DNA from: Acidisoma cellulosilyticum
Lineage (GTDB): Bacteria; Pseudomonadota; Alphaproteobacteria; Acetobacterales; Acetobacteraceae
DNA length: 64,000 nt
Direction of reading: 5' to 3'
Assembly (NCBI RefSeq): GCF_020621385.1
Contig: NZ_JAESVA010000004.1
Location: forward strand, 248,001-312,000
Shown: one piece after another, positions 53,681-64,000 of the stretch
How positions within the stretch are numbered: position 1 is the stretch's first letter
Layout of the letters: every line of letters starts with the position of its first letter
Translations under genes and position numbers: made by a program
Notes under the pieces: model-generated
Told to the model about the DNA's origin: nothing
Databases searched by the model: none
The model's input: the letters and a program-made list of their open reading frames with translations, nothing else

Positions 53681-54001
53681 ATGTGCGGCCTTTGCGGTAT
53701 CGTGGGCAATGCGCCGCATTGGTCTGAAGGCGTGCCGGCCCCGTCCTTGCCGGACACGCCCGCCCGACGACGGGAACGGCAGGAGCGCGTGCGCGGCCTC
53801 AACCGCGTTTTGTCGCCCTTCGGCCTGACGGCGGCGGATTGGCAGGCGCATGCCTATGTCATCGCAACCCGCACGGGCCGATCCGAGATCGTCGATAATA
53901 CGGCGCATCTTTGGCCTGCCGCCGCCAGGCTTTGCGGCAAGCCCTGCGACCCTTTGGACCCCAAACTCATCGCGCGCCTGGAAGCTGAGGTGCGACGATG
54001 A
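53681..54001 (+). CDS. Hypothetical MCxxC protein preceding the CobW GTPase
   Basis: A 106-residue protein that starts MCGLCGIVGN, giving CxxC at residues 2-5, and has a second pair CGKPC at 85-89. The middle is Arg-rich and probably helical. It starts 5 bases after the deacetylase stop and its own stop overlaps the CobW ATG, so it is surely translated with them. The four cysteines and the neighbouring metallochaperone suggest metal binding. I do not recognise the family. Confidence 0.7.
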   Translation: MCGLCGIVGNAPHWSEGVPAPSLPDTPARRRERQERVRGLNRVLSPFGLTAADWQAHAYVIATRTGRSEIVDNTAHLWPAAARLCGKPCDPLDPKLIARLEAEVRR

Positions 54002-55002
54002 CCGAGCGCCTGCCGCTTCATCTCATCAGCGGATTTCTCGGCAGCGGCAAGACGACGCTGCTGCAGCGCATGCTCGGCGCGCCGGCGCTCGGTGACAGCG
54101 CCGTGCTGGTCAATGAATTGGGAGAAATCGGGCTCGACCATCATCTGCTGCGGCATATCGATGGCGAGACGGTTTTGCTGCGCAACGGCTGCGTCTGTTG
54201 CACCGTGCGGGACGATCTGGGCGCGGCGTTGAAGGACCTGCTGTCACGCCGCGCTCGGGGCGAGATTCCCGGTTTTTCCCGCGTGATCGTCGAAAGCACG
54301 GGCCTGGCTGACCCGGTGCCGATCCTCTCGACCATCGCGGCCGAGCCGTCGCTACGCCATCACGTCCGGATCGGGCGTGTCATCACGACGGTGGATGCGG
54401 TGAACGCTGGCTTGCAATCCCGGCAGCAGCCGGAATTCGCCAGCCAGATTGCGGTCGCCGACCGCATCGTGCTGACCAAGACCGATATCGCGGATGCCGG
54501 CACGATCGCAGCGGCGATGGCGCAGCTGCGCCTGATCAATCCCGGTGCCGCGATCGACCGCGCCATGGCCCCCGATCTCGATGTCGCTGATCTGCTGGCC
54601 GAGCCGCAGACATCGGCCGCACTCAGCGCCGAGGCCAGCGCCTGGACGCGGCCAAGCGCACGCTTCCAGGCGGTTGCGGCGCATGACGCCGGGGTGCAGA
54701 GTTTCTGCATGGTCTTTGATAGGCCGATCGACTGGGTGACGCTCGGCATCTGGCTGACCATGCTGCTCCATGCCCATGGCGAGCGGGTTTTGCGGGTCAA
54801 GGGTCTGCTGGATATCGCGGGCAGCGATTATCCCGTGGTCATCAACGGCGTGCAGCATGTCATGCATAAGCCTTTGCATCTGGATGCCTGGCCGGACGAG
54901 GATCATCGTTCTCGGTTGGTCTTTATTCTGCGCGATCTGCCCCGCGATCTGGTCGAGCGGTCCTGTCTCGCCTTTCTCGGTCTTGTTCCCGCCTATGCGT
55001 GA
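53998..55002 (+). CDS. CobW/COG0523-family GTPase (metal chaperone)
   Basis: The 334-residue G3E GTPase has the P-loop GFLGSGKTTLL at residues 12-22, the metal-binding CVCC at 65-68 (NGCVCCTVRDDL), VVEST-like VIVESTGLADPVP and the guanine motif LTKTDIADA. The C-terminal CobW domain includes WLTMLLHAHGERVLRVKGLL. These proteins load Zn, Co or other metals into client enzymes. Likely clients here are the metal-dependent cyclase, deacetylase-fold or hydantoinase enzymes; this is inference from operon position. Confidence 0.9.
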   Translation: MTERLPLHLISGFLGSGKTTLLQRMLGAPALGDSAVLVNELGEIGLDHHLLRHIDGETVLLRNGCVCCTVRDDLGAALKDLLSRRARGEIPGFSRVIVESTGLADPVPILSTIAAEPSLRHHVRIGRVITTVDAVNAGLQSRQQPEFASQIAVADRIVLTKTDIADAGTIAAAMAQLRLINPGAAIDRAMAPDLDVADLLAEPQTSAALSAEASAWTRPSARFQAVAAHDAGVQSFCMVFDRPIDWVTLGIWLTMLLHAHGERVLRVKGLLDIAGSDYPVVINGVQHVMHKPLHLDAWPDEDHRSRLVFILRDLPRDLVERSCLAFLGLVPAYA

Positions 55003-55014
55003 CGGAGGATTATG

Positions 55015-55740
55015 ATGCCTGCACTGCTCAATTGCGACATGGGCGAATCCTACGGGCTGTACAAGCTCGGCGAGGATGAGGCCTTGATGCCGCTGATCGA
55101 TGTCGCGAACGTCGCCTGCGGCTTTCATGCCTCAGACTTCAACCATATGCGCGCGACCGTCCGGCTGGCGAAGCAGCAGGGGGTCGCGGTCGGCGCCCAT
55201 CCGTCACTGCCGGACCGCCAGGGTTTCGGCCGGCGGGAGATGGCGATGAAGCGGGAGGAGCTGGCGAATTGCCTTATCTATCAGGTCGGCGCGCTGAAGG
55301 GCTTTCTGGAAGCGGAAGGCATGGTGCTTAATCATATCAAGCCGCATGGCTCGCTATTTGGCATGGCCGGACGGTTGGAGCATATCGCGCATGCCATCTG
55401 CGATGTCGCCGAGATCTTCAAAGTGCCGGTCTTCGGCATGCTCGGCACCTTGCATGAGACGATCTTCCCGGCCCGTGGCATCCCGTTTCTGGCGGAATAT
55501 TACGCCGATCTGGAGTATGACGACGAAGGTCGTCTGATCATCACGCAGGTGCATGACGCGGTCGACCCCGCTCTCGCCGCCGCGCGCTGCACGCGCGCGA
55601 TCAGGGAAGGGCTGACGCAGACGGTGGGCGGCCGGGATGTGCGGGTGGGGGCCGAGACCATCTGCATTCATTCCGATACGCCCAATGCCGTCGATATCGC
55701 GACGGCCGTGCGCGCGGCCATCCGCGCCGAGGCTGGCTGA
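55015..55740 (+). CDS. pxpA: 5-oxoprolinase subunit A / LamB-YcsF family protein
   Basis: The 241-residue protein shows the family start LLNCDMGESYGLYKLGEDEA, then VACGFHASDFNHM, GAHPSLPDRQGFGRREMA and LNHIKPHGSLFGMA. PxpA works with PxpB and PxpC in ATP-dependent cleavage of 5-oxoproline to glutamate. GGAGG is 6 bases before ATG 55015 and only 3 before ATG 55012, so 55015 is preferred. The next gene, a biotin carboxylase, overlaps its stop (TGATG). A second homolog is at 60941. Confidence 0.92.
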   Translation: MPALLNCDMGESYGLYKLGEDEALMPLIDVANVACGFHASDFNHMRATVRLAKQQGVAVGAHPSLPDRQGFGRREMAMKREELANCLIYQVGALKGFLEAEGMVLNHIKPHGSLFGMAGRLEHIAHAICDVAEIFKVPVFGMLGTLHETIFPARGIPFLAEYYADLEYDDEGRLIITQVHDAVDPALAAARCTRAIREGLTQTVGGRDVRVGAETICIHSDTPNAVDIATAVRAAIRAEAG

Positions 55741-57119
55741 TGCGCAAGCTGCTGATCGCCAATCGGGGGGAGATTGCGGTGCGTATCGGGCGCGCCGCGC
55801 GGGCGCTTGGCATCGCGACTGTCGCTGTCCATTCCGAGGCGGATGCGACAGCGCTGCATGTCACCTCGGCCGACGAAGCCGTCGCCATCGGCCCCGCCCG
55901 CCCGGCGCAGAGCTATCTGGTGGTGGAAGCCATCATCGCCGCCGCCCAGGCGACGGGCGCCGATGCCATCCATCCGGGTTATGGGTTCCTGGCCGAGAAT
56001 GCGGGCTTTGCCCAAGCGGTGGAGGCGGCAGGGCTTATCTTCGTCGGCCCGACGCCAGCGCAGATTGCCATGATGGGCGACAAAGGCCGCGCGCGCGAAG
56101 CGGCGGAGGCCGCTGGCGTGCCGGTGCTGCCGGCGAGCGGGCGCATTGCGCCCGGCGCCTTCGACGGCTTGGCGGAGGCCGGGGCCCGCGTCGGCTTTCC
56201 CTTGCTGGTCAAGGCGGTCGCCGGCGGTGGCGGCATCGGCATGCGCCTGGTGGCGAAATCCGAGGACCTGCTGCCCGCGGTGGAAGCCCTGCAATCCATG
56301 GCCGCGCGGGCCTTCGGAGACGGCACCGCCTATCTGGAGCGCTATGTCGCGGCAGCACGGCATGTCGAGGTGCAGGTTTTCGGCCTCGGCGACGGTCGCG
56401 CTGTCCATCTGTTCGAGCGGGAATGCTCTGTCCAGCGTCGGTTCCAGAAAATTGTCGAGGAGAGCCCATCCCCTGGCATTACCCCGGAAACCCGCGCTGC
56501 CATGTGCCAGGCCGCGCAGGCCTTGGCGGCGGCGGTCGGCTACCGCTCCGCCGGAACCATCGAATTCGTCGTCGATGACGAAACCGGTGCCTTCTATTTC
56601 CTGGAAATGAATACCCGCATTCAGGTCGAGCATCCGGTGACGGAGATGATCACGGGCGTCGATCTTGTGCAGGCGCAGCTGCGGCTGGCACAGGGGGAGG
56701 ATTGTTCCGCTGTGCTGGATGGGCTGACAGCGCAAGGCCATGCTATCGAATGCCGTCTTTGTGCCGAGAATCCCGAGCGCATGTTTCTGCCCTCGCCGGG
56801 CAAGATAACCCGGCTGGTATTGCCGGAGGCCGCTGGCCTGCGCATCGATACCGGTGTGCGGGAGGGCGATACCGTCACGCCCTTTTATGACTCCTTGCTC
56901 GCCAAGATCATTGTCCATGCGGCGGATCGCCCAAGCGCTATCGCGGGGATGCAGGCGGCTTTGGGCGCATTGACGATCGAAGGCATCATCACCAATCGTG
57001 AATTTCTTCTGCGTCTTCTGGCGCATCCAGCCTTCATGGCTGGCCAAACGCTGACAGGTTTTATCGACACCCATCGGGCAGCATTGTTTCCGCCCAAAAC
57101 CGGAGAGACAAGCGCATGA
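55740..57119 (+). CDS. Biotin carboxylase subunit (AccC-like)
   Basis: The 459-residue ATP-grasp enzyme starts MRKLLIANRGEIAVRIGRAA and has HPGYGFLAENAGFAQA, the glycine-rich loop KAVAGGGGIGMRLV, RHVEVQVFGLGDGRAVHLFE, FLEMNTRIQVEHPVTEMITG and an end region IITNREFLLRLLAHPAF. It carboxylates biotin on the 72-residue carrier encoded at 58978. Placement between pxpA and pxpB points to a pathway-specific biotin-dependent enzyme rather than fatty-acid synthesis. Confidence 0.93.
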   Translation: MRKLLIANRGEIAVRIGRAARALGIATVAVHSEADATALHVTSADEAVAIGPARPAQSYLVVEAIIAAAQATGADAIHPGYGFLAENAGFAQAVEAAGLIFVGPTPAQIAMMGDKGRAREAAEAAGVPVLPASGRIAPGAFDGLAEAGARVGFPLLVKAVAGGGGIGMRLVAKSEDLLPAVEALQSMAARAFGDGTAYLERYVAAARHVEVQVFGLGDGRAVHLFERECSVQRRFQKIVEESPSPGITPETRAAMCQAAQALAAAVGYRSAGTIEFVVDDETGAFYFLEMNTRIQVEHPVTEMITGVDLVQAQLRLAQGEDCSAVLDGLTAQGHAIECRLCAENPERMFLPSPGKITRLVLPEAAGLRIDTGVREGDTVTPFYDSLLAKIIVHAADRPSAIAGMQAALGALTIEGIITNREFLLRLLAHPAFMAGQTLTGFIDTHRAALFPPKTGETSA

Positions 57120-57985
57120 TCTATCCTGAACCGCGCTTCTTGCCAGGGGGGGATCGCTATATCCTGGTCGAGTTCGGCAATGAGATGAACCTGGAACTGA
57201 ATTTCCTTGCCCAGGGGCTGGCCGCCGCGATCGCCGAGGCGCGGATAAAAGGGGTGATAGAGACAGCGCCCTGCTTCGCCTCCATGCTCGTGCATTACGA
57301 GCCGGAGCTGATCGGTTTCGATGACCTGACGACCGAACTCTCCCGCCTGGTCGCCGGTCTGGGGCCATCGGACGCTTTGGAGCTGGAGAGCCGGCTTTGG
57401 TATTTCCCAGCGGTCTATCTCGATCCTTGGACGCGGGCCTGCGTCGATGACTATATCGCCAAGATCGCGCCCAAGACGCCGGATTGGGATTTGATGGTGG
57501 AATTGAACGGGCTGCGCGACACCGACCATTTCGTGCGCCTGCATTCGGGCACCGAATATTGGGTCGCGTCCCTGGGTTTCTGGCCCGGCCTGCCCTTCAT
57601 GATGGCGTTGGACCCACGGGCCAAGATGACGGCCCCAAAATACAATCCGCCGCGCACCTGGACGCCGGCTGGCGCCATCGGCCTTGGCGGCGCATCGACC
57701 TCGATCTATCCCGAGGCGCTGCCCGGCGGCTATCAGATCTTTGCGCGCACGCCCGTGCCGATCTGGGATCGGACGCAGCGATTTGCGGCCTTTGACGGGT
57801 CCATTTGTCTGTTCAAACCAGGCGATCGGGTGCGTTTCGTGCCTTGCTCGGTCGAGGAATTCGAGACGATCGAGCGTGAAGTGGCTGACGGGACCTATGA
57901 GTATAACATGGTCGGCTACGGCAAGTTCTCCGTCTCGCTCTATAATAAATGGACGGCATCGCTCAATGCAGGGAGGGTGTCATGA
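57116..57985 (+). CDS. pxpB: 5-oxoprolinase subunit B / KipI-AHS1 family protein
   Basis: The 289-residue protein contains the AHS1 (allophanate hydrolase subunit 1) domain: CFASMLVHYEPELIGFDDLT, VYLDPWTRACVDDYIAK, TEYWVASLGFWPGLPFMMAL and YPEALPGGYQIFARTPVPIW. It is longer than Bacillus KipI (about 240) but like urea-carboxylase-type AHS1 units with an extended N-terminus. It is coupled by 4-bp overlaps to the biotin carboxylase and to the AHS2 gene. Confidence 0.9.
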   Translation: MIYPEPRFLPGGDRYILVEFGNEMNLELNFLAQGLAAAIAEARIKGVIETAPCFASMLVHYEPELIGFDDLTTELSRLVAGLGPSDALELESRLWYFPAVYLDPWTRACVDDYIAKIAPKTPDWDLMVELNGLRDTDHFVRLHSGTEYWVASLGFWPGLPFMMALDPRAKMTAPKYNPPRTWTPAGAIGLGGASTSIYPEALPGGYQIFARTPVPIWDRTQRFAAFDGSICLFKPGDRVRFVPCSVEEFETIEREVADGTYEYNMVGYGKFSVSLYNKWTASLNAGRVS

Positions 57986-58962
57986 GCTTTGAGGTCATCA
58001 AACCCGGACTGGAAACCTCGGTTCAGGATTGGCCCGGGCGCTACGGTTATTGGAACCAGGGCTTTCCGCCTTCGGGACCTATGGATAGCTGGTCCTTCCG
58101 CCTCGCCAATCTGCTGGTGGGTAATCCGGTCGGTGCGGCCGCGTTGGAATGCCAGTATATGGGCCCGACATTGCGCTTTGACAGGGAAACCCTGTTTGCC
58201 GTGACGGGCGCCGATATGCAGCCGACGCTGGACGGTGTGCCGGTGCCGCTATGGGAAAGCGTTCTGGCGCAGCCGGGCCAGGTGCTGGCCATGGCCTTCG
58301 CCAAGCTTGGCACGCGCGCCTATATCGCGCTGGCCGGCGGAATTGAGGTGGCACCTTGGCTTGGATCGCGCGCAACCTTTCATAAGGCCGGTATCGGCGG
58401 CATGGAGGGCAAGGCGATAAAAGCCGGCCAGACCGTGCCGGTCGGCGCCGCGCCAGCGGCGGCCAAGCCGGGCCGCCAGGTAAAACCTGAGGCGAGACCT
58501 GTCATCGCGACCGATCGCCGGTGGGAGATCGAGGTGGTCGCCGGTCCCAATGATGATTGGATCGATGCGGCCGGGCATGAGCGGTTTCTCTCGACCGATT
58601 GGAAACTCTCCGGCAAGTCCGACCGCACGGGTTTCCGGCTTGATGGCCCGGAATGGAGTTTTACCGAGAAGGCGAAGAACAAGGCGCCGGAACACGGCTC
58701 CCTACCATCCAATATCATCGACCAGGGCTATCCTTTAGGTGCCATCAACCTTGCCGGCCAGACGCCGATTATCCTGGTCAATGACGGGCCTTCAATGGGC
58801 GGCTTCATCAACCCCTATACCGTGCCGCAGGCGGCTTTCTGGAAGCTCGGGCAATCCAAGCCCGGGGAATTCTATCGCTTCAAGGCCGTCAGCGTGACGG
58901 AAGCCCAGAGCATGGCGCGGGCTTTGAGCGCGATCTGCACCGACACCGCGATTACTGGTTGA
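57982..58962 (+). CDS. pxpC: 5-oxoprolinase subunit C / KipA-AHS2 biotin-dependent carboxyltransferase family
   Basis: The 326-residue protein starts MSFEVIKPGLETSVQDWPGR and has GFPPSGPMDSWSFRLANLLV, ALECQYMGPTLRFDRETLFA, GIEVAPWLGSRATFHKAGIG and PSNIIDQGYPLGAINLAGQT, all AHS2 signatures. In urea carboxylase the AHS1 and AHS2 domains carry out carboxyl transfer from biotin. The ATG overlaps the pxpB stop (ATGA). With accC and the carrier it reconstitutes a split urea-carboxylase-like enzyme. Confidence 0.92.
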   Translation: MSFEVIKPGLETSVQDWPGRYGYWNQGFPPSGPMDSWSFRLANLLVGNPVGAAALECQYMGPTLRFDRETLFAVTGADMQPTLDGVPVPLWESVLAQPGQVLAMAFAKLGTRAYIALAGGIEVAPWLGSRATFHKAGIGGMEGKAIKAGQTVPVGAAPAAAKPGRQVKPEARPVIATDRRWEIEVVAGPNDDWIDAAGHERFLSTDWKLSGKSDRTGFRLDGPEWSFTEKAKNKAPEHGSLPSNIIDQGYPLGAINLAGQTPIILVNDGPSMGGFINPYTVPQAAFWKLGQSKPGEFYRFKAVSVTEAQSMARALSAICTDTAITG

Positions 58963-58977
58963 GAGAGGGAGATAGGC

Positions 58978-59196
58978 ATGGTGACGGAAGTTCGCACCCA
59001 GACAGCCGGCAATGTCTGGAAGGTTTTGGTGCAGCCAGGGGATAACGTGGCCGAGGGCGATACGCTCTTCATCATGGAGGTGATGAAGATGGAGGTGCCG
59101 CATACCGCGCCCGTCGCGGGAACGGTCAAGGCCGTGCACGTCGCCAATGACCAGGAAGGGTTTGACGCCGACGTGCTGGCCATCGAACTCGAATAG
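58978..59196 (+). CDS. Biotin carrier protein (biotinyl domain)
   Basis: A 72-residue single-domain biotinyl protein with the attachment motif EVMKMEV (Lys near residue 39; usual form AMKME) and the flanking glycines of the hammerhead fold (QPGDNVAEGD, APVAGTVKAVHV). GAGAGGGAG precedes the ATG. It lacks the Pro/Ala-rich linker of acetyl-CoA carboxylase BCCP, as expected for a dedicated carrier of the accC-pxpB-pxpC enzyme. Its TAG stop is where the repeat element begins. Confidence 0.9.
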   Translation: MVTEVRTQTAGNVWKVLVQPGDNVAEGDTLFIMEVMKMEVPHTAPVAGTVKAVHVANDQEGFDADVLAIELE

Positions 59197-59375
59197 AGCT
59201 CTTCAGGGTTTGATAGAAGGCTGGCCGCCTTCACCTCGTCATCCGCGCACTGGTTGCGCGGAACTGCCCCTGGAGGCGCCTCGCCGGCCTCTTGCCTGCG
59301 GATGTGGGGAGATGCGCGGGTCGGGGCCCGCGCATGACAGATTTTTGCGCGCTTCCAATCCTGACAAATTCTAGA
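59194..59375. repeat. Second MITE/REP-like hairpin element
   Basis: This stretch repeats the organisation of 15206-15373: a TAGAGCTCTTCAGGGTTTGA left end, GTCATCCGCGC-actggtt-GCGCGG hairpin (59238-59262), a second hairpin ATGCGCGGGtcgggGCCCGCGCAT with GAC (about 59312-59337), a GATTTTTG stretch, and a right end whose reverse complement is TCTAGAATTTGTCAGG. It fills exactly the gap between two convergent genes and its ends overlap both TAG stop codons. Confidence 0.7.
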
Positions 59376-60738
59376 TAGCGGCGAGAGTCTTGTCGAGCGC
59401 GTCCAGAAGTTGGTCGCAATTCGCTTCGCTGAAAATCAACTGCGGCCGGATTTTGAGAACATTCGCATCCGGCCCGGTGGCGGAGATGAGGACGCGACGA
59501 TCCCGCAGGCCGTTCACGATCGCTAGCCCAACATCGATATCGGTTGTCTTGGCGACGCGATCCTTGACCAGCTCGACCCCGTAATAAAGACCGGTGCCGC
59601 GCACGTCACCGATCTGCTCATATCGCTGGCCGAGCTGCTGCAGACCCGCGAGCAGGGTGCCGCCGACCTTGCTGGCATTCGTCAGAAGGCCAGGGCTGAG
59701 GATTGTGTCGAGCGTGGCGCGGGCCGCCGCTATCGCCACCGTATTGCCACCGAATGTATTGAAATATCGCATGTCACGGCCGAAATCCTCAATGACTTCG
59801 GGGCGGAAAATGGCGCCGGCGACGGGATAGCCGTTGCCCATCGGCTTGCCCATGGTGACGATATCGGGATCGACGCCATGCCGGCTATAACCCCAGAGGT
59901 GATCGCAGGTACGCCCGAAGCCTGACTGCACTTCGTCCGCAATGAACAAGCCGCCGGCCTTGCGCACGATTTCGGCGACGGGGGCCAGAATATCCGTGGG
60001 ATTGACAAAGAGACCATCGGACGAAAACACGGAATCCACGATGAAGGCCGCAATTCCGTCACCGCGACGTTCAAGATCCTTGATCTGCTGAGCGACTTCG
60101 GCCGCCATGCGCGGACCGATCTCCGCCAGCGGAATCCGGTAGCTGTCGGGCGCCGATACCGTTCTCAGAGAGGGATCGAGCGTCGAATGCTTTCCGAGCG
60201 ATGGGGATATGGCCGCCACCGCGCCGGAATTGCCGTGATAGGCTTCCGAGGTGACGATGACACCGCGCTTGCCCGTGCGGTGGCGCGCCACGCGCAGCGC
60301 CAGGTCATTGGCCTCGGAGCCCGTGCAGGTGAACATGACGCAGCCGGTTCTGCCGATCTCACCGTCGAAGGTGGCGAGCAGACGTTCCGCATAATCCAGC
60401 AGGCCATCCTGCATATAGCGGCTATGGGTGCAGAGAATATCAAGCTGCTCTTTGATTGCGTCCACCACGCGCGGGGAGGAATGGCCGAGCGAGACGACAT
60501 TGTTATAGGCATCCAGATATTGATGGCCCTTGTCGTCATAGAGAAACACGCCTTCGCCGCGCGCGATCTTGACCGGTGTCCGGTAGAAGAGGCGATAGGC
60601 AGGGCCAAGCAGGCGTTTGCGGCGTTCGATGTGCCGGATGTCCTCGGCGTCGAGGCCGGATGCGCTGCTCGGGTCAAAACTATTGGGCATATCCCCACGA
60701 AACGCTTTGGTGAGCTTCGGGGTGCTGGTGGAGGTCAT
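59371..60738 (-). CDS. Class III PLP aminotransferase (AGXT2-like)
   Basis: The 455-residue enzyme has ARGEGVFLYDDKGHQYLDAY, NNVVSLGHSSPRVVDAIKEQ, TGSEANDLALRVARHRTG, FIADEVQSGFGRTCDHLWGY and the PLP lysine in TMGKPMGNGYPVAG. It belongs to the omega-aminotransferase group that includes alanine-glyoxylate aminotransferase 2 and beta-alanine or aminoisobutyrate transaminases, which would suit products of dihydropyrimidine or lactam opening. ATG 60738 has TAGGAT upstream; the frame runs to 60786 without support. It points toward the large plus-strand block. Confidence 0.88.
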   Translation of the reverse strand: MTSTSTPKLTKAFRGDMPNSFDPSSASGLDAEDIRHIERRKRLLGPAYRLFYRTPVKIARGEGVFLYDDKGHQYLDAYNNVVSLGHSSPRVVDAIKEQLDILCTHSRYMQDGLLDYAERLLATFDGEIGRTGCVMFTCTGSEANDLALRVARHRTGKRGVIVTSEAYHGNSGAVAAISPSLGKHSTLDPSLRTVSAPDSYRIPLAEIGPRMAAEVAQQIKDLERRGDGIAAFIVDSVFSSDGLFVNPTDILAPVAEIVRKAGGLFIADEVQSGFGRTCDHLWGYSRHGVDPDIVTMGKPMGNGYPVAGAIFRPEVIEDFGRDMRYFNTFGGNTVAIAAARATLDTILSPGLLTNASKVGGTLLAGLQQLGQRYEQIGDVRGTGLYYGVELVKDRVAKTTDIDVGLAIVNGLRDRRVLISATGPDANVLKIRPQLIFSEANCDQLLDALDKTLAAI

Positions 60739-60891
60739 CGTGATCCTAAATTTTTTCGATCTGATAGGGACGGAGTCTGACGGCAAAGCTTCCTGAAGCA
60801 GGTTGACGGATCATGAACAGGCGCGCGTCGCACCTTCCGGCTTAGCGCTTCCGCGCCTTGGTCGTGCAAGGCCCATAGGGCATTGCCAATA

Positions 60892-60910
60892 ATGGTATAT
60901 CATGTATCAT
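60892..60910. promoter_or_regulatory. Operator candidate ATGGTATA-N3-TGTATCAT upstream of second pxpA
   Basis: The 19-bp imperfect palindrome ATGGTATATCATGTATCAT is identical at 17 of 19 positions to the sequence at 63190-63208 upstream of the ABC transporter gene. It lies 31 bp before the GTG of the pxpA copy. The form is typical for FCD-class GntR regulators. The remainder of 60739-60940 shows no other element. Confidence 0.65.
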
Positions 60911-60940
60911 TGGCCATCTGCAGCGTCAAGGAATTGCCAA

Positions 60941-61663
60941 GTGAAGGTCACGATTAACTGCGACATGGGCGAAGCCTTCGGAATCTACCGCTTCGGAAGC
61001 GACGAAGCGCTGATGCCCTATGTTACCCACGCGAATATCGCCTGCGGCTTCCATGCTTCGGATCCGCGCGTGATGTGGCAGACACTGCGGACGGCGAAAG
61101 CGCATGGCCTGAATATCGGTTCGCATCCCGGACTGCCGGACCGGGAAGGGTTCGGGCGGCGCGAGATGAAGGTGTCGCGCGAGGAGGTCGCTGCCATGGT
61201 GATCTATCAAACCGGGGCGTTGCAGGGCTTCGCCGCGACGGAAGGCATCAAACTGTCCCATATCAAACCGCACGGATCGCTGATGGGCATGGCGCAGCGT
61301 CTGGACCATGTCGCGGAGGGGCTTGCGGATGCCGCGCTCGCACTCGGCCTGCCGATGATCGCCAATGCGGATTGCTGCATGTCGGACGTCTTCGCGCGGC
61401 GTGGCGTTCCCTTCACCTGCGAATTCTATGTCGACCTCGATTATGATGATGACGGTCGCCAGATCATTACCAAAGAGCATGAACCCGTCTCCGCCGATGT
61501 CGTCGGTGGTCTCGTTATCCGCGCCGTGACCGAGGGCCTGACCCGTTCGATCAATGGGCGGGATGTCGCGGTGACGGCGCAAAGCATTTGCGTCCATAGC
61601 GATACGCCGGGCGCGGCCGATGTGGCGCGCGCGGTTCATACTGCGCTGCGCGACAGGCTTTAG
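60941..61663 (+). CDS. LamB-YcsF family protein, second PxpA-like copy
   Basis: The 240-residue protein starts VKVTINCDMGEAFGIYRFGS and has ANIACGFHASDPRVM, GSHPGLPDREGFGRREMKVS and LSHIKPHGSLMGMAQRL, parallel to the copy at 55015. GTG 60941 is chosen since AAGGA lies 9 bases upstream and a longer frame would run through the operator. No pxpB or pxpC follows; instead a GroEL-like gene starts 10 bases after the stop, so this copy may act alone or with the distant pxpBC. Confidence 0.9.
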   Translation: MKVTINCDMGEAFGIYRFGSDEALMPYVTHANIACGFHASDPRVMWQTLRTAKAHGLNIGSHPGLPDREGFGRREMKVSREEVAAMVIYQTGALQGFAATEGIKLSHIKPHGSLMGMAQRLDHVAEGLADAALALGLPMIANADCCMSDVFARRGVPFTCEFYVDLDYDDDGRQIITKEHEPVSADVVGGLVIRAVTEGLTRSINGRDVAVTAQSICVHSDTPGAADVARAVHTALRDRL

Positions 61664-61673
61664 GCGTACCGCC

Positions 61674-63131
61674 TTGCCTCAGATCCTGATGGATGAGCAA
61701 GCGCGGCAAGTCCTCCGTCGCTCGCTTGACCGCAGCGTGCGCGCGGCGGCCGCGACCTGCGCGCCTCTGCACGGGACGCTTCTGTATGACAGAGGCGGCC
61801 AGGCCCGCGTTGCGCAAGACGGGTTCGAGGCCGTGCGGGAAAGTGCCGAGGATACGGGCGCCCTTTCCATCGGCGGTCGTATCCTGAAGGAAACGCTGGC
61901 GGAGGCGCAGCGGGATCTGGGCGACGGCACGGCCCGTCTTGCGCTTTTTATCGGTGCCGCGATGGAGGCCGGGCTGCGGCAGATTGCGGCCGGGGCCAGC
62001 CCCACGGCCTTTGCCGATGCCTTGCTCGCACAGCGCCCTGGCTTTGACACGGCCTTACTAAGGCAGTCGAGCCCGGCGCCGGCACCGCATGCTTTTGCCC
62101 TTGCACAGGGATTGGATGAAGCGCTGGCGGCGATCTTCGCCGAAGCGATCGCCCATGCCGGCCCGGACGGCGCGATCGACATGCGGGCCGGGCATCGCGA
62201 TGAAAGCGGCCTGGAGGTCGGGCAAGGCTTTTTGGTGAATCTGGAGCCCGTGTCGCAAGCCTTGCCGCCCGCCACGGGCGCCAGGCTGGAACTGGCCCAG
62301 CCCTATATTCTGGTCGCGAATGACAGGCTCTCCGCACTCGGGCGTCTGGCGCCGCTGCTGGACCAATTCGCGACGCGCGGTAAATCGCTCGCGATCATCA
62401 CGCGGGGTGCAGAGGGGCCGGCGCTTGATACGCTAGTCGTCAATGGCAGGCTGCCGGGCGCGACGCTGACGGCGCTGCAACCGCCTGCGGCGGGCTTGGG
62501 CGCGGTGGCAGTGCTGGAGGATTTGGCGGTCGCCACCGGGGCAATGCTGATCGACCCCGCCCTTGGCGTCAGTCTCGACCACGTCCGGCCGGCGATGCTG
62601 GGGCGAGCGGAGCGGCTGGTGCTGTCGCGCGGCGTCGCCTGCTTCGAGGGACCGGCCGGCGATGCATCGCGCATTGCGCAGCGGCAGCGCGACATTCATG
62701 CGGCTTTCGAGCGGCAACGCTATCTGTCGCTCGACAGAGAGCAATTGGCGCGGCGAGAGGCCCGGCTGTCCGGGCGTTGGGCGCGCATCACCCAGGCGCC
62801 GGTGCCGGGGGAAGGGCGCGAGGAGACCGAGGCGCGTGTTGCCGCTCTGCGCAAGCTATTGGCACAGATGCGCGCGGCGGAGACCGGCGGCGTATTGCGG
62901 GCGCCGCGCGACGGGATCCTGACCTTGGCCGGTTCCCTCGCGGCAGTGGATGCCGGCGGCACCAACGAAGATCGCGCGGCCCGCACGACATTCTCTGCCG
63001 GTCTGCTGGCCTTGGCAGCGGGATGCGGCACGGCACCGTGGGAAGCGATGCCGGTTCTGTCAGGGATTGTACGGAAAGGCGTCTCCGCGACAGCCACAAT
63101 GCTCAGAATAGCGGCAATCATCTCGGATTGA
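61674..63131 (+). CDS. Strongly diverged GroEL/Hsp60-like protein
   Basis: About 485 residues that align along the length of GroEL: MPQILMDEQARQVLRRSLDR (GroEL FGxxAR start), VAQDGFEAVRE (ITKDGVSVARE), LGDGTARLALFIGAAMEAGL with the nucleotide-binding GDGT at residues 83-86, IAAGASP (VAAGMNP), the apical part LELAQPYILVANDRLSALGR and KSLAIITRGAEGPALDTLVV, and LSRGVACFEGPAGDASRIAQ-RQRDI. Unlike GroEL it lacks the catalytic Asp398 region (RVEDALHA reads RVAALRKL), the GGG motif, and the GGM tail. TTG 61674 has AGGCG upstream and gives a GroEL-like N-terminus; ATG 61689 is the alternative. It follows pxpA by 10 bases. Function unknown; an assembly factor for cluster enzymes is possible. Confidence 0.72.
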   Translation: MPQILMDEQARQVLRRSLDRSVRAAAATCAPLHGTLLYDRGGQARVAQDGFEAVRESAEDTGALSIGGRILKETLAEAQRDLGDGTARLALFIGAAMEAGLRQIAAGASPTAFADALLAQRPGFDTALLRQSSPAPAPHAFALAQGLDEALAAIFAEAIAHAGPDGAIDMRAGHRDESGLEVGQGFLVNLEPVSQALPPATGARLELAQPYILVANDRLSALGRLAPLLDQFATRGKSLAIITRGAEGPALDTLVVNGRLPGATLTALQPPAAGLGAVAVLEDLAVATGAMLIDPALGVSLDHVRPAMLGRAERLVLSRGVACFEGPAGDASRIAQRQRDIHAAFERQRYLSLDREQLARREARLSGRWARITQAPVPGEGREETEARVAALRKLLAQMRAAETGGVLRAPRDGILTLAGSLAAVDAGGTNEDRAARTTFSAGLLALAAGCGTAPWEAMPVLSGIVRKGVSATATMLRIAAIISD

Positions 63132-63189
63132 CGGAATTTAAGGCGGTGGTTGCACGAATTGATGGTTGCCGCACTCTGGGCCCCATGCA

Positions 63190-63208
63190 ATGGTATAGCA
63201 TATATCAT
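63190..63208. promoter_or_regulatory. Operator candidate ATGGTATA-N3-TATATCAT upstream of the ABC transporter
   Basis: ATGGTATAGCATATATCAT is a palindrome with one mismatch between 8-bp arms and matches 60892-60910 at 17 of 19 positions. It lies 23 bp before the TTG start of the ABC ATPase, implying common control of both transcription units. Confidence 0.65.
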
Positions 63209-63230
63209 AGACCAAATGACGAGGTTAGTC

Positions 63231-64000
63231 TTGGCTAAGGCGGCAACCCAATCGGCGACAATGCTGGAGGCACGAGACATCGTGCATCGCTATGGGCCTG
63301 TGGTTGCGCTCGACCACGTCTCCATTACGGCCGCGCGGGGCGAATTCCTCACTATTCTGGGCGAAAGCGGCTCAGGCAAAACCACGATGCTGCGCGTCAT
63401 CTCCGGGCTCGAACGTCCGCATTCCGTGGGCGCCTTGCTTATCGGCGGCGAAGACGTCGCCAATCTTCCGGCGGCGCAGCGCAACTGCACGACCGTTTTC
63501 CAAAGCTACGCGTTGTTTCCCCATATGTCGGTGGAGGAGAATGTCGCGTATGGCTTGAAGATCCGCGGCGTGCCGATGGATGAGCGCCGTCGGCGCGTGG
63601 ACGAGGCGCTGAACCTGGTTCGCCTTCACCAGAAATCTGCCCGCCGCATTGGGCAGCTTTCGGGCGGCGAACGGCAGCGCGTGGCTTTGGCGCGCGCCAT
63701 CGTCACGCGGCCGGCGCTGCTTCTGCTGGACGAACCGCTCGGCGCGTTGGACGAACGGCTGCGCTATGACATGCAGACGGAATTGGTCGAGCTTCACAAG
63801 ACGCTCGGCATGACATTCATCTATATCACCCATAGCCAGGAAGAAGCGCTCACCATGAGCGACCGCATTTTGTTGATGCGTCATGGTCGGGTGGAGCAGG
63901 CGGGTCGGCCGGAGGAGTTGTTCGATCGGCCCGTCAGCCGCTTTGCGGCGTCCTTCATGGGTTTCGAAAATCTTCTGCCTTGCCGGGTGGAGCACAAACT
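63231..64000 (+). CDS. PotA-type ABC transporter ATP-binding protein, 3' end outside window
   Basis: About 257 residues are visible and the frame is open at the window end. Motifs: Walker A GESGSGKTT, Q-loop VFQSYALFPHMSVEENVAYG, signature LSGGERQRVALARAI, Walker B LLLLDEPLGALDERLRYDMQ, switch YITHSQEEALTMSDRI and the start of a C-terminal regulatory domain (FMGFENLLPCRV). This is the spermidine/putrescine (PotA) class. The TTG at 63231 has GAGG 7 bases upstream; ATG 63216 and ATG 63261 are alternatives. Permease and binding-protein genes are expected beyond the window. Confidence 0.9.
   Translation, partial: MAKAATQSATMLEARDIVHRYGPVVALDHVSITAARGEFLTILGESGSGKTTMLRVISGLERPHSVGALLIGGEDVANLPAAQRNCTTVFQSYALFPHMSVEENVAYGLKIRGVPMDERRRRVDEALNLVRLHQKSARRIGQLSGGERQRVALARAIVTRPALLLLDEPLGALDERLRYDMQTELVELHKTLGMTFIYITHSQEEALTMSDRILLMRHGRVEQAGRPEELFDRPVSRFAASFMGFENLLPCRVEHK

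Follow-up and report, generated by a model that had tools for sequence, protein, structure and literature searches.

A conserved, probably non-hydrolysing GroEL-like pseudo-chaperonin tied to a Pxp/biotin-carboxylase gene cluster

The GroEL-like gene and its neighbourhood

The window, by which we mean the whole 64,000-nucleotide stretch of Acidisoma cellulosilyticum DNA analysed here, contains an open frame on the forward strand (61674-63131, confirmed by our reading of the window's open frames) that a first-pass annotation had described as a degenerate GroEL-like protein coupled to a pxpA-like gene. Because of the comparison of ortholog N-termini and the 25-nt gap that it leaves after the pxpA stop at 61663, the ATG at 61689 (480 aa) is a more likely start than the TTG at 61674. 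The genes and motifs considered below are as follows (window coordinates).

55012..55740, + strand: pxpA1, of the first pxp set (Pfam, NCBIfam)
55740..57119, + strand: biotin carboxylase, accC-like (NCBIfam)
57116..57985, + strand: pxpB1; the urea carboxylase model scores above PxpB, both below cut-off (NCBIfam)
57949..58962, + strand: pxpC1; the urea carboxylase model scores above PxpC, and the match exceeds the cut-off set for the 5-oxoprolinase/urea amidolyase domain model (NCBIfam)
58978..59196, + strand: small biotin carrier protein, 72 aa (Biotin_lipoyl, 3.9e-15)
59371..60786, - strand: class III aminotransferase; best match PRK06148, the same family as for the APH kinase of the cluster (profile match)
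60902..61663, + strand: pxpA2 (LamB/YcsF family), directly upstream of the GroEL-like gene; alternative start GTG 60944 (Pfam, 1.2e-78; NCBIfam PxpA subfamily model over cut-off)
61689..63131, + strand: candidate GroEL-like pseudo-chaperonin gene, 480 aa (NCBIfam, PDB phmmer, ortholog alignment, AlphaFold)
61920..61937, + strand: GDGTAR motif, residues 78-83, with Asp87-Gly88-Thr89 kept and Thr91 replaced by Arg (alignment)
62853..62855, + strand: codon aligned with GroEL Asp398, here Lys389 (alignment)
63150..64000, running past the window end, + strand: polyamine-type (PotA-like) ABC ATPase, whose true start may be later (neighbour reading, profile matches)

Beyond the window, the ABC ATPase is followed on the forward strand by genes for a binding protein bearing a Tat-like signal and for two permeases, then by pxpB2 and pxpC2, and further on by an APH kinase (reverse strand) and a GntR regulator (forward strand). 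The assignment of pxpA2 to the PxpA family is clear from its scores (Pfam, 264.5 bits against a cut-off of 22; NF003814, 245.8 against 226). Besides the set that includes the GroEL-like gene, the window holds a second pxp set (the one numbered 1 in the list) at 53998-59196, made up of a cobW-like GTPase, pxpA1, the biotin carboxylase, pxpB1, pxpC1, and the biotin carrier.

The urea-carboxylase-like scores of pxpB1 and pxpC1, together with the adjoining accC and biotin carrier genes, make it likely that the cluster catalyses a biotin-dependent amide or lactam step, as predicted from these profiles. The class III aminotransferase and the APH kinase (L034:15204-16325) are encoded apart, and both match the fused PRK06148 family, each scoring under its full-length cut-off, which is to be expected of separate halves. 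They likely form one pathway step pair, and the shared match suggests a kinase plus phospho-lyase or transaminase acting on a hydroxy-amine.

Homology and predicted structure

By descent, the window protein is to be placed in the Cpn60 superfamily as a full-length GroEL homolog: the NCBIfam GroEL model matches residues 2-421 (E = 9.9e-47), and phmmer searches of the PDB reach 4.5e-36 against solved chaperonins, in agreement with the GroEL-like identity first proposed for it. None of its matches to eight NCBIfam models, that to GroEL included, attains the curated cut-off, and Pfam Cpn60_TCP1 gives an E-value of only 0.0087, under cut-off as well, so that automated annotation may leave the gene unnamed. 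The Pfam gathering score is passed by all four orthologs scanned (L046, L047, L050, and L053).

Structure prediction, which the first-pass annotation had set beforehand as a test of its reading, returned a chaperonin fold. The AlphaFold model of the window protein (20 sequences) has a pLDDT of 88.5 and a pTM of 0.82, and the 50 solved structures listed for it are all chaperonins; among these, the best TM-score by query length is 0.84, to the Thermus Cpn60 chain in its complex with Cpn10, and the top match by E-value is unliganded GroEL (5opw; TM, 0.57). Modelling the Shinella pollutisoli copy as well gave a pLDDT of 88.8 and TM-scores of up to 0.89 among the 50 listed. The equatorial, intermediate, and apical chaperonin domains are thus all present in the predicted models. 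By query length, the window model scores 0.74 to 0.84 against GroES/Hsp10-bound chains versus 0.54 to 0.62 against the others of its 50, and the S. pollutisoli model scores 0.81 to 0.89 versus 0.55 to 0.62 among the structures listed for it; this is no more than a hint, drawn from models of the GroEL-like family itself, that both prefer the GroES/Hsp10-bound shape.

Residues lost and retained

We compared 20 GroEL-like copies, including that of the window, with 32 canonical-type GroELs, of which the window's own genome supplied 2 and relatives the other 30. (The near-canonical GroEL of locus L063, described below, served for comparison only and belongs to neither group; a 21st copy, L085, was found after the table was compiled and is outside its counts.) The missing Asp398 motif noted at first sight in the window is a family-wide trait: the position is Asp in 0 of 20 copies (Arg in 14, Ala in 4, Lys in 1, and Ser in 1) versus 32 of 32 canonical-type proteins. 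Asp52, present in all 32 canonical-type proteins, is lost in 17 of the 20 copies and kept in 3, and Lys51 is kept in none. Alignment at the three Asp positions, as had been proposed, shows the window copy to be one of these 3, with Asp52 (its Asp44) and Asp87 kept and Asp398 gone.

The nucleotide loop itself persists, with Asp87 and Gly88 kept in all 20 copies and Thr89 in 18 (Ser in 2). Arginines have accumulated at several positions: Thr91, found in 32 of 32 canonical-type GroELs, is Arg in 19 of 20 copies (the exception being L047), and both Lys58 and Glu252 are Arg in all 20. The residues gripping GroES and substrate, Tyr199, Tyr203, and Phe204, each occur in 0 of 20 copies versus 32, 30, and 31 of the 32 canonical-type proteins, and Arg197, Lys327, and Glu386 are likewise each absent from all 20 (30 to 32 of 32 in canonical-type proteins).

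The equatorial stem-loop is lost in 18 of 20 copies: the 38 residues that a canonical copy has between Asn457 and the Asp-Pro preceding the last helix shrink to 6 to 18 in these copies (28 in L060, 39 in L047). The C-terminal GGM tail is absent from all 20, none of which has a tail of more than 7 residues. The initial report of a missing tail holds; the C-terminal equatorial helix is still present, most of the preceding stem-loop region having gone with the tail. The loss of the GGG loop, also reported initially, is correct for the window, which reads APR, but is no trait of the family: all three glycines remain in 12 of 20 copies and two in 7 of 20, and complete loss is, in this alignment, a local extreme peculiar to the window copy.

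Conservation is concentrated elsewhere. Of 23 invariant columns, 15 lie in the apical domain, the least variable of the three, and the residue before the last-helix proline is Asp in 18 copies and Glu in 2; this retained acidic residue and the invariant columns speak against simple total decay. Judged from its residues, the protein is probably non-hydrolysing toward ATP and may have given up ring formation as well.

Cluster organization and distribution

The first ortholog found, in Shinella sp. PSBB067, has 36% identity to the window protein (4e-45; tblastn of plasmid records). A pattern scan with the GroEL-like protein itself yielded 81 stretches that matched the pattern and 0 confirmed relatives, probably due to single-protein patterns being too specific. 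A second scan took aligned sequences of the cluster's binding protein as query against 84,980 species genomes and confirmed 27 loci from 42 pattern-matched stretches; it used two short patterns, and its counts are lower bounds. Of the 27 loci, 21 contain pxp genes; the stretch upstream of the transporter is readable in 19 of these (L042 and L056, cut by contig ends, were excluded), and 18 of the 19 have the GroEL-like gene. With the window, Shinella PSBB067, and genome G999 added, the gene is present in 21 of 22 readable pxp clusters. The sole exception is Halotalea (L057), a gammaproteobacterium with pxpA, transporter, pxpB, pxpC, kinase, and aminotransferase but without the GroEL-like gene. 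Among the carriers are Robbsia (Betaproteobacteria), Caballeronia, Pararobbsia, Shinella, Ochrobactrum, Roseovarius, Thioclava, Mesorhizobium, and Arboricoccus (Alphaproteobacteria); several hosts have culture-collection numbers, Shinella pollutisoli KCTC 52677 and Roseovarius pacificus DSM 29589 being examples.

Under strict thresholds, a search of 397 genomes of the window's family detected the gene in the window's own genome only, a phylum sample of 398 genomes gave two (again the window's own, plus G999), and the 160 genomes sampled from G999's family gave three; these searches scored only the best few candidates per genome and may have missed others. The same 3 of 160 genomes have the binding protein, 1.2 to 1.4 kb from the GroEL-like gene; two of them (L086 and L087) are the L046 and L043 copies and were not counted as new. 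In genome G001, of the window's own genus, 34 residues at a contig end match positions 445-478 at 71% identity and are followed by the same transporter. A class sample queried in the same way with the Shinella copy gave 2 matches in 385 genomes, the window's own and G682, the latter a nonortholog. The G682 best match, despite its ortholog-like score, was dropped: it keeps Asp398, groups with canonical-type copies, and is counted among the 32. This diverged paralog (L041:1249-2916), its Asp398 intact, has neighbours that look by eye like genes for a class IV aminotransferase and an FAD-type oxidase; it groups in the tree with the L063 GroEL (88/86), which is also near a class IV aminotransferase.

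Each of the 20 aligned copies, from Alpha- and Betaproteobacteria, belongs to a cluster that has the same ABC transporter, and in 19 cases pxpA comes directly before the GroEL-like gene. The typical alphaproteobacterial order is pxpA, GroEL-like gene, ABC ATPase, binding protein, two permeases, GntR (other strand), pxpB, pxpC, APH-type kinase, class III aminotransferase, and biotin carboxylase; in Burkholderiaceae, the kinase and aminotransferase genes are found upstream, on the opposite strand. Among the 21 clusters with the gene, the APH-type kinase is found in 19 and a biotin carboxylase is in view in 17; the class III aminotransferase belongs to the conserved unit, with only a weak match in L047. 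The pairing with pxpA seen in the window, whose conservation was the other test set by the first-pass annotation, is conserved in relatives, but the conserved unit is wider than this pair, extending to the four-gene ABC transporter, pxpB, and pxpC and to the kinase, aminotransferase, and biotin carboxylase. The original interpretation is supported in part: the degenerate chaperonin fold, the loss of catalytic residues (a family-wide trait), and the conserved pair stand, and failure to hydrolyse ATP, as the residues suggest, and PxpA as the client are predictions.

Spacing within the cluster is tight: in 7 of 19 loci the start of the GroEL-like gene overlaps the pxpA stop, any gap is no more than 25 nt in all 19 (the L054 start, which is not at a start codon, being taken from the alignment), and the aligned start of the ABC ATPase lies 46 to 196 nt downstream in all 19 loci measured. 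In L047, the gene is apart from pxpA, with another gene between it and the ABC ATPase. The window's binding protein scores 21.6 bits against TAT_signal, just under the cut-off of 22.7, and a twin-arginine-like pattern occurs in the binding proteins of 17 of 19 loci.

Of the six loci without pxp genes, L063 has a near-canonical GroEL before the same transporter (L063:7152-8810) and L062 the last 87 residues of one (L062:1-261); both are Alphaproteobacteria MAGs with no pxp genes in view, and the GroEL link may therefore be to the transporter as well, beyond the pxp genes. L063 has a hydantoinase B gene at a distance of ~6 kb and L062 a hydantoinase A gene at 10 to 12 kb, possibly a second association of a chaperonin with a lactam/hydantoin transporter. 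No GroEL-like gene is in view in L064, L065, and L067, and L068 comprises only 3.2 kb of sequence. In L067 (Rhizobium sp. 18055), which has no pxp or GroEL-like genes in view, the binding-protein gene is split in two frames (L067:10001-11130), and the transporter looks like a decaying copy.

Evolution

In a tree of 36 sequences, the 20 copies make up one side of a single branch (100/100 support), and the L063 protein falls with the canonical-type GroELs. Long branches lead to four sequences, the window among them (1.64), and the tree program warns of uneven composition in 15. The GroEL-like protein is much less conserved than its neighbours, with a median pairwise identity over 19 loci of 39.5% versus 71.4% for PxpA; the corresponding values are 63.8% (PxpB), 64.1% (PxpC), 64.4% (ABC ATPase), and 69.5% (binding protein). 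Six pairs were tried for dN/dS, of which the sixth was saturated; the five computable pairs, three with dS above 1, gave values of 0.225, 0.107, 0.169, 0.258, and 0.366 for the GroEL-like gene, above each of five neighbours tested in every pair. By these estimates, the gene is under purifying selection that is relaxed relative to its neighbours. All 20 aligned copies, which come from two classes, have an open frame and, on this evidence and the dN/dS values, we rejected a pseudogene.

Other chaperonins in the genome

The genome holds two more GroEL genes, both of which keep Asp398: one after groES on contig C7, the ordinary groESL pair whose presence elsewhere had been put forward for checking, and one on C14. 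The window, on C4, has no adjacent groES, as the first-pass annotation had stated, the genome's only Cpn10 matches being on C7 and C2. The C14 gene (L037:8364-10001) lies behind genes for a methane/phenol-type hydroxylase, a reductase, and a coupling protein; the full diiron-type monooxygenase set with its GroEL spans L037:2104-10001 (G000:C14) and has two hydroxylase subunits; genes for an FeS_assembly_P domain protein and for an amidohydrolase separate the monooxygenase genes from the GroEL. Its neighbours suggest a MimG-type chaperonin. MimG is described, in the part of the source consulted, as serving the maturation of MimAC (PMC7176365). The C14 protein, the one MimG-type copy examined, keeps Asp398, Asp52, and Asp87: a dedicated chaperonin need not lose its catalytic residues, but the GroEL-like family of the window did.

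Function of the GroEL-like protein

The protein is probably a conserved, non-hydrolysing group I pseudo-chaperonin tied to the Pxp/biotin-carboxylase cluster, and assembly or holding of PxpA(BC) is its likeliest role. Our tentative explanation, to which we give a little less than even confidence, is a client-dedicated pseudo-chaperonin that works independently of ATP for PxpA or for a PxpABC/biotin-carboxylase complex. Such a protein would keep the three-domain chaperonin fold and would have shed the residues for ATP hydrolysis, domain coupling, and the gripping of GroES and hydrophobic chains, along with most of the stem-loop. It would use the conserved apical domain to bind a client encoded in the same cluster, PxpA or the PxpABC/biotin-carboxylase complex being the likeliest, and would keep that client stable or order the steps of its assembly with no ATP cycle involved; the retained GDGT(x)R loop would hold a nucleotide or other anion as a fixed structural part. 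We favour an ATP-independent holding or assembly factor because of the stop-start overlaps with pxpA, the cluster-bound occurrence, and the conserved apical domain with its gripping residues replaced. Several observations weigh against this: Halotalea has the cluster without the gene, which is thus not strictly needed; the L047 gene is not beside pxpA and is followed by an extra gene before the ABC ATPase; near-canonical GroELs precede the same transporter in L062 and L063 with no pxp genes in view; the protein evolves much faster than PxpA; and the window copy sits on a long branch.

The arginines gained at positions 91 (19/20) and 398 (14/20) beside the kept Asp87-Gly88, with those at 58 and 252 in all copies, suggest a changed anion site and, together with the cluster-bound occurrence, would suit a subunit of the Pxp/biotin-carboxylase enzyme that stays in the complex in a structural or sensing role, its chaperonin fold holding a nucleotide or phosphorylated intermediate; but an evolutionary rate far above those of PxpA, PxpB, and PxpC is unusual for a core subunit, and with its absence from L057 we consider this reading unlikely, if the most serious of the alternatives. 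The near-constant proximity to the ABC ATPase, the GroELs of L062 and L063, and the Tat-like signals could instead mean that the protein serves the transporter, by holding or delivering the binding protein or by assembling the importer. We judge this unlikely too, and a shade more so, given that the stop/start overlaps are with pxpA, that L047 has a gene between the GroEL-like gene and the ATPase, and that four loci (L057, L064, L065, and L067) have the binding protein with no GroEL-like gene in view.

That the protein mixes into ordinary GroEL rings as a client adaptor is improbable: the genome does have groES followed by groEL, and hetero-oligomers are reported, in the excerpt consulted, to form on co-expression of GroELs from different species (PMC7844535), but loss of the stem-loop in 18 of 20 copies and of many contact residues lowers the chance that it enters a ring. 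An active but unusual ATPase chaperonin could be read from the retained Asp87/Gly88 (20/20) and Thr89 (18/20, Ser in 2), the intact predicted fold, and the window's Asp52, yet we think it highly improbable with Asp398 in no copy, Asp52 in 3 of 20, and Lys51 in none. Least probable of all is a decaying relic of a captured GroEL. Fast evolution, dN/dS above that of the five neighbours tested, and the window's additional loss of GGG point that way, against which stand frames open in 20 copies across two classes, dN/dS of 0.11 to 0.37, and 23 invariant columns.

Chaperonins are thought to act through an ATP-driven ring cycle. If our explanation is true, this lineage shows which part of a chaperonin is useful alone, and it points to an unrecognised component of the Pxp/biotin-carboxylase catabolic system.

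Comparison with known systems

In the parts of the PxpABC literature consulted (PMC8453981), a chaperonin is not named, and the word has 0 occurrences in the accessible portion of the C. glutamicum pxpTABC paper (PMC13274462). A literature search on a pxp-linked GroEL-like gene of this kind returned nothing on point, as judged partly from listings and abstract starts; two papers using both pxp and chaperonin-like words treat them, in the text so sampled, as unrelated genes. The cluster resembles the PxpABC 5-oxoprolinase in having pxpA, pxpB, and pxpC but differs in that a transporter is set between them and that genes for a biotin carboxylase, a kinase, and a class III aminotransferase accompany them.

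GroEL and other group I Cpn60 proteins share with the window's family full-length homology, fold, and the GDGT loop, whereas the family is without Asp398 (20/20), Asp52 (17/20), the gripping residues, the stem-loop (18/20), the GGM tail, and an adjacent groES. MimG-type GroELs of propane/acetone monooxygenase clusters are alike in being paralogs bound to one catabolic operon; they differ in that this genome's copy keeps Asp398, Asp52, and Asp87 and in having a diiron-type monooxygenase rather than a lactam enzyme for a neighbour, no diiron monooxygenase being found among the neighbours of the window gene that were read. The chlamydial GroEL2 and GroEL3 variants (NCBIfam) are likewise diverged bacterial GroEL paralogs, but the window protein reaches only 31 and 42 bits against their cut-offs of 600.

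A parallel in proposed working is with BBS6, BBS10, and BBS12, diverged chaperonin folds that are thought, in the portion of the source consulted, to take part in the assembly of one complex without ATP-driven folding and ring formation (PMC5534436). The likeness is an analogy and extends to the proposed working only, the BBS proteins being group II, eukaryotic, and of separate origin. With the same guarded confidence, not quite even, as for the dedicated assembly role, we propose that the GroEL-like family may be a counterpart, within bacterial group I, of the BBS pseudo-chaperonins: a lineage of Alpha- and Betaproteobacteria, bound to its operon and without ATP cycle, GroES, and probably ring, which would act as an ATP-independent assembly factor or a fixed subunit of a biotin-dependent lactam-opening machine.
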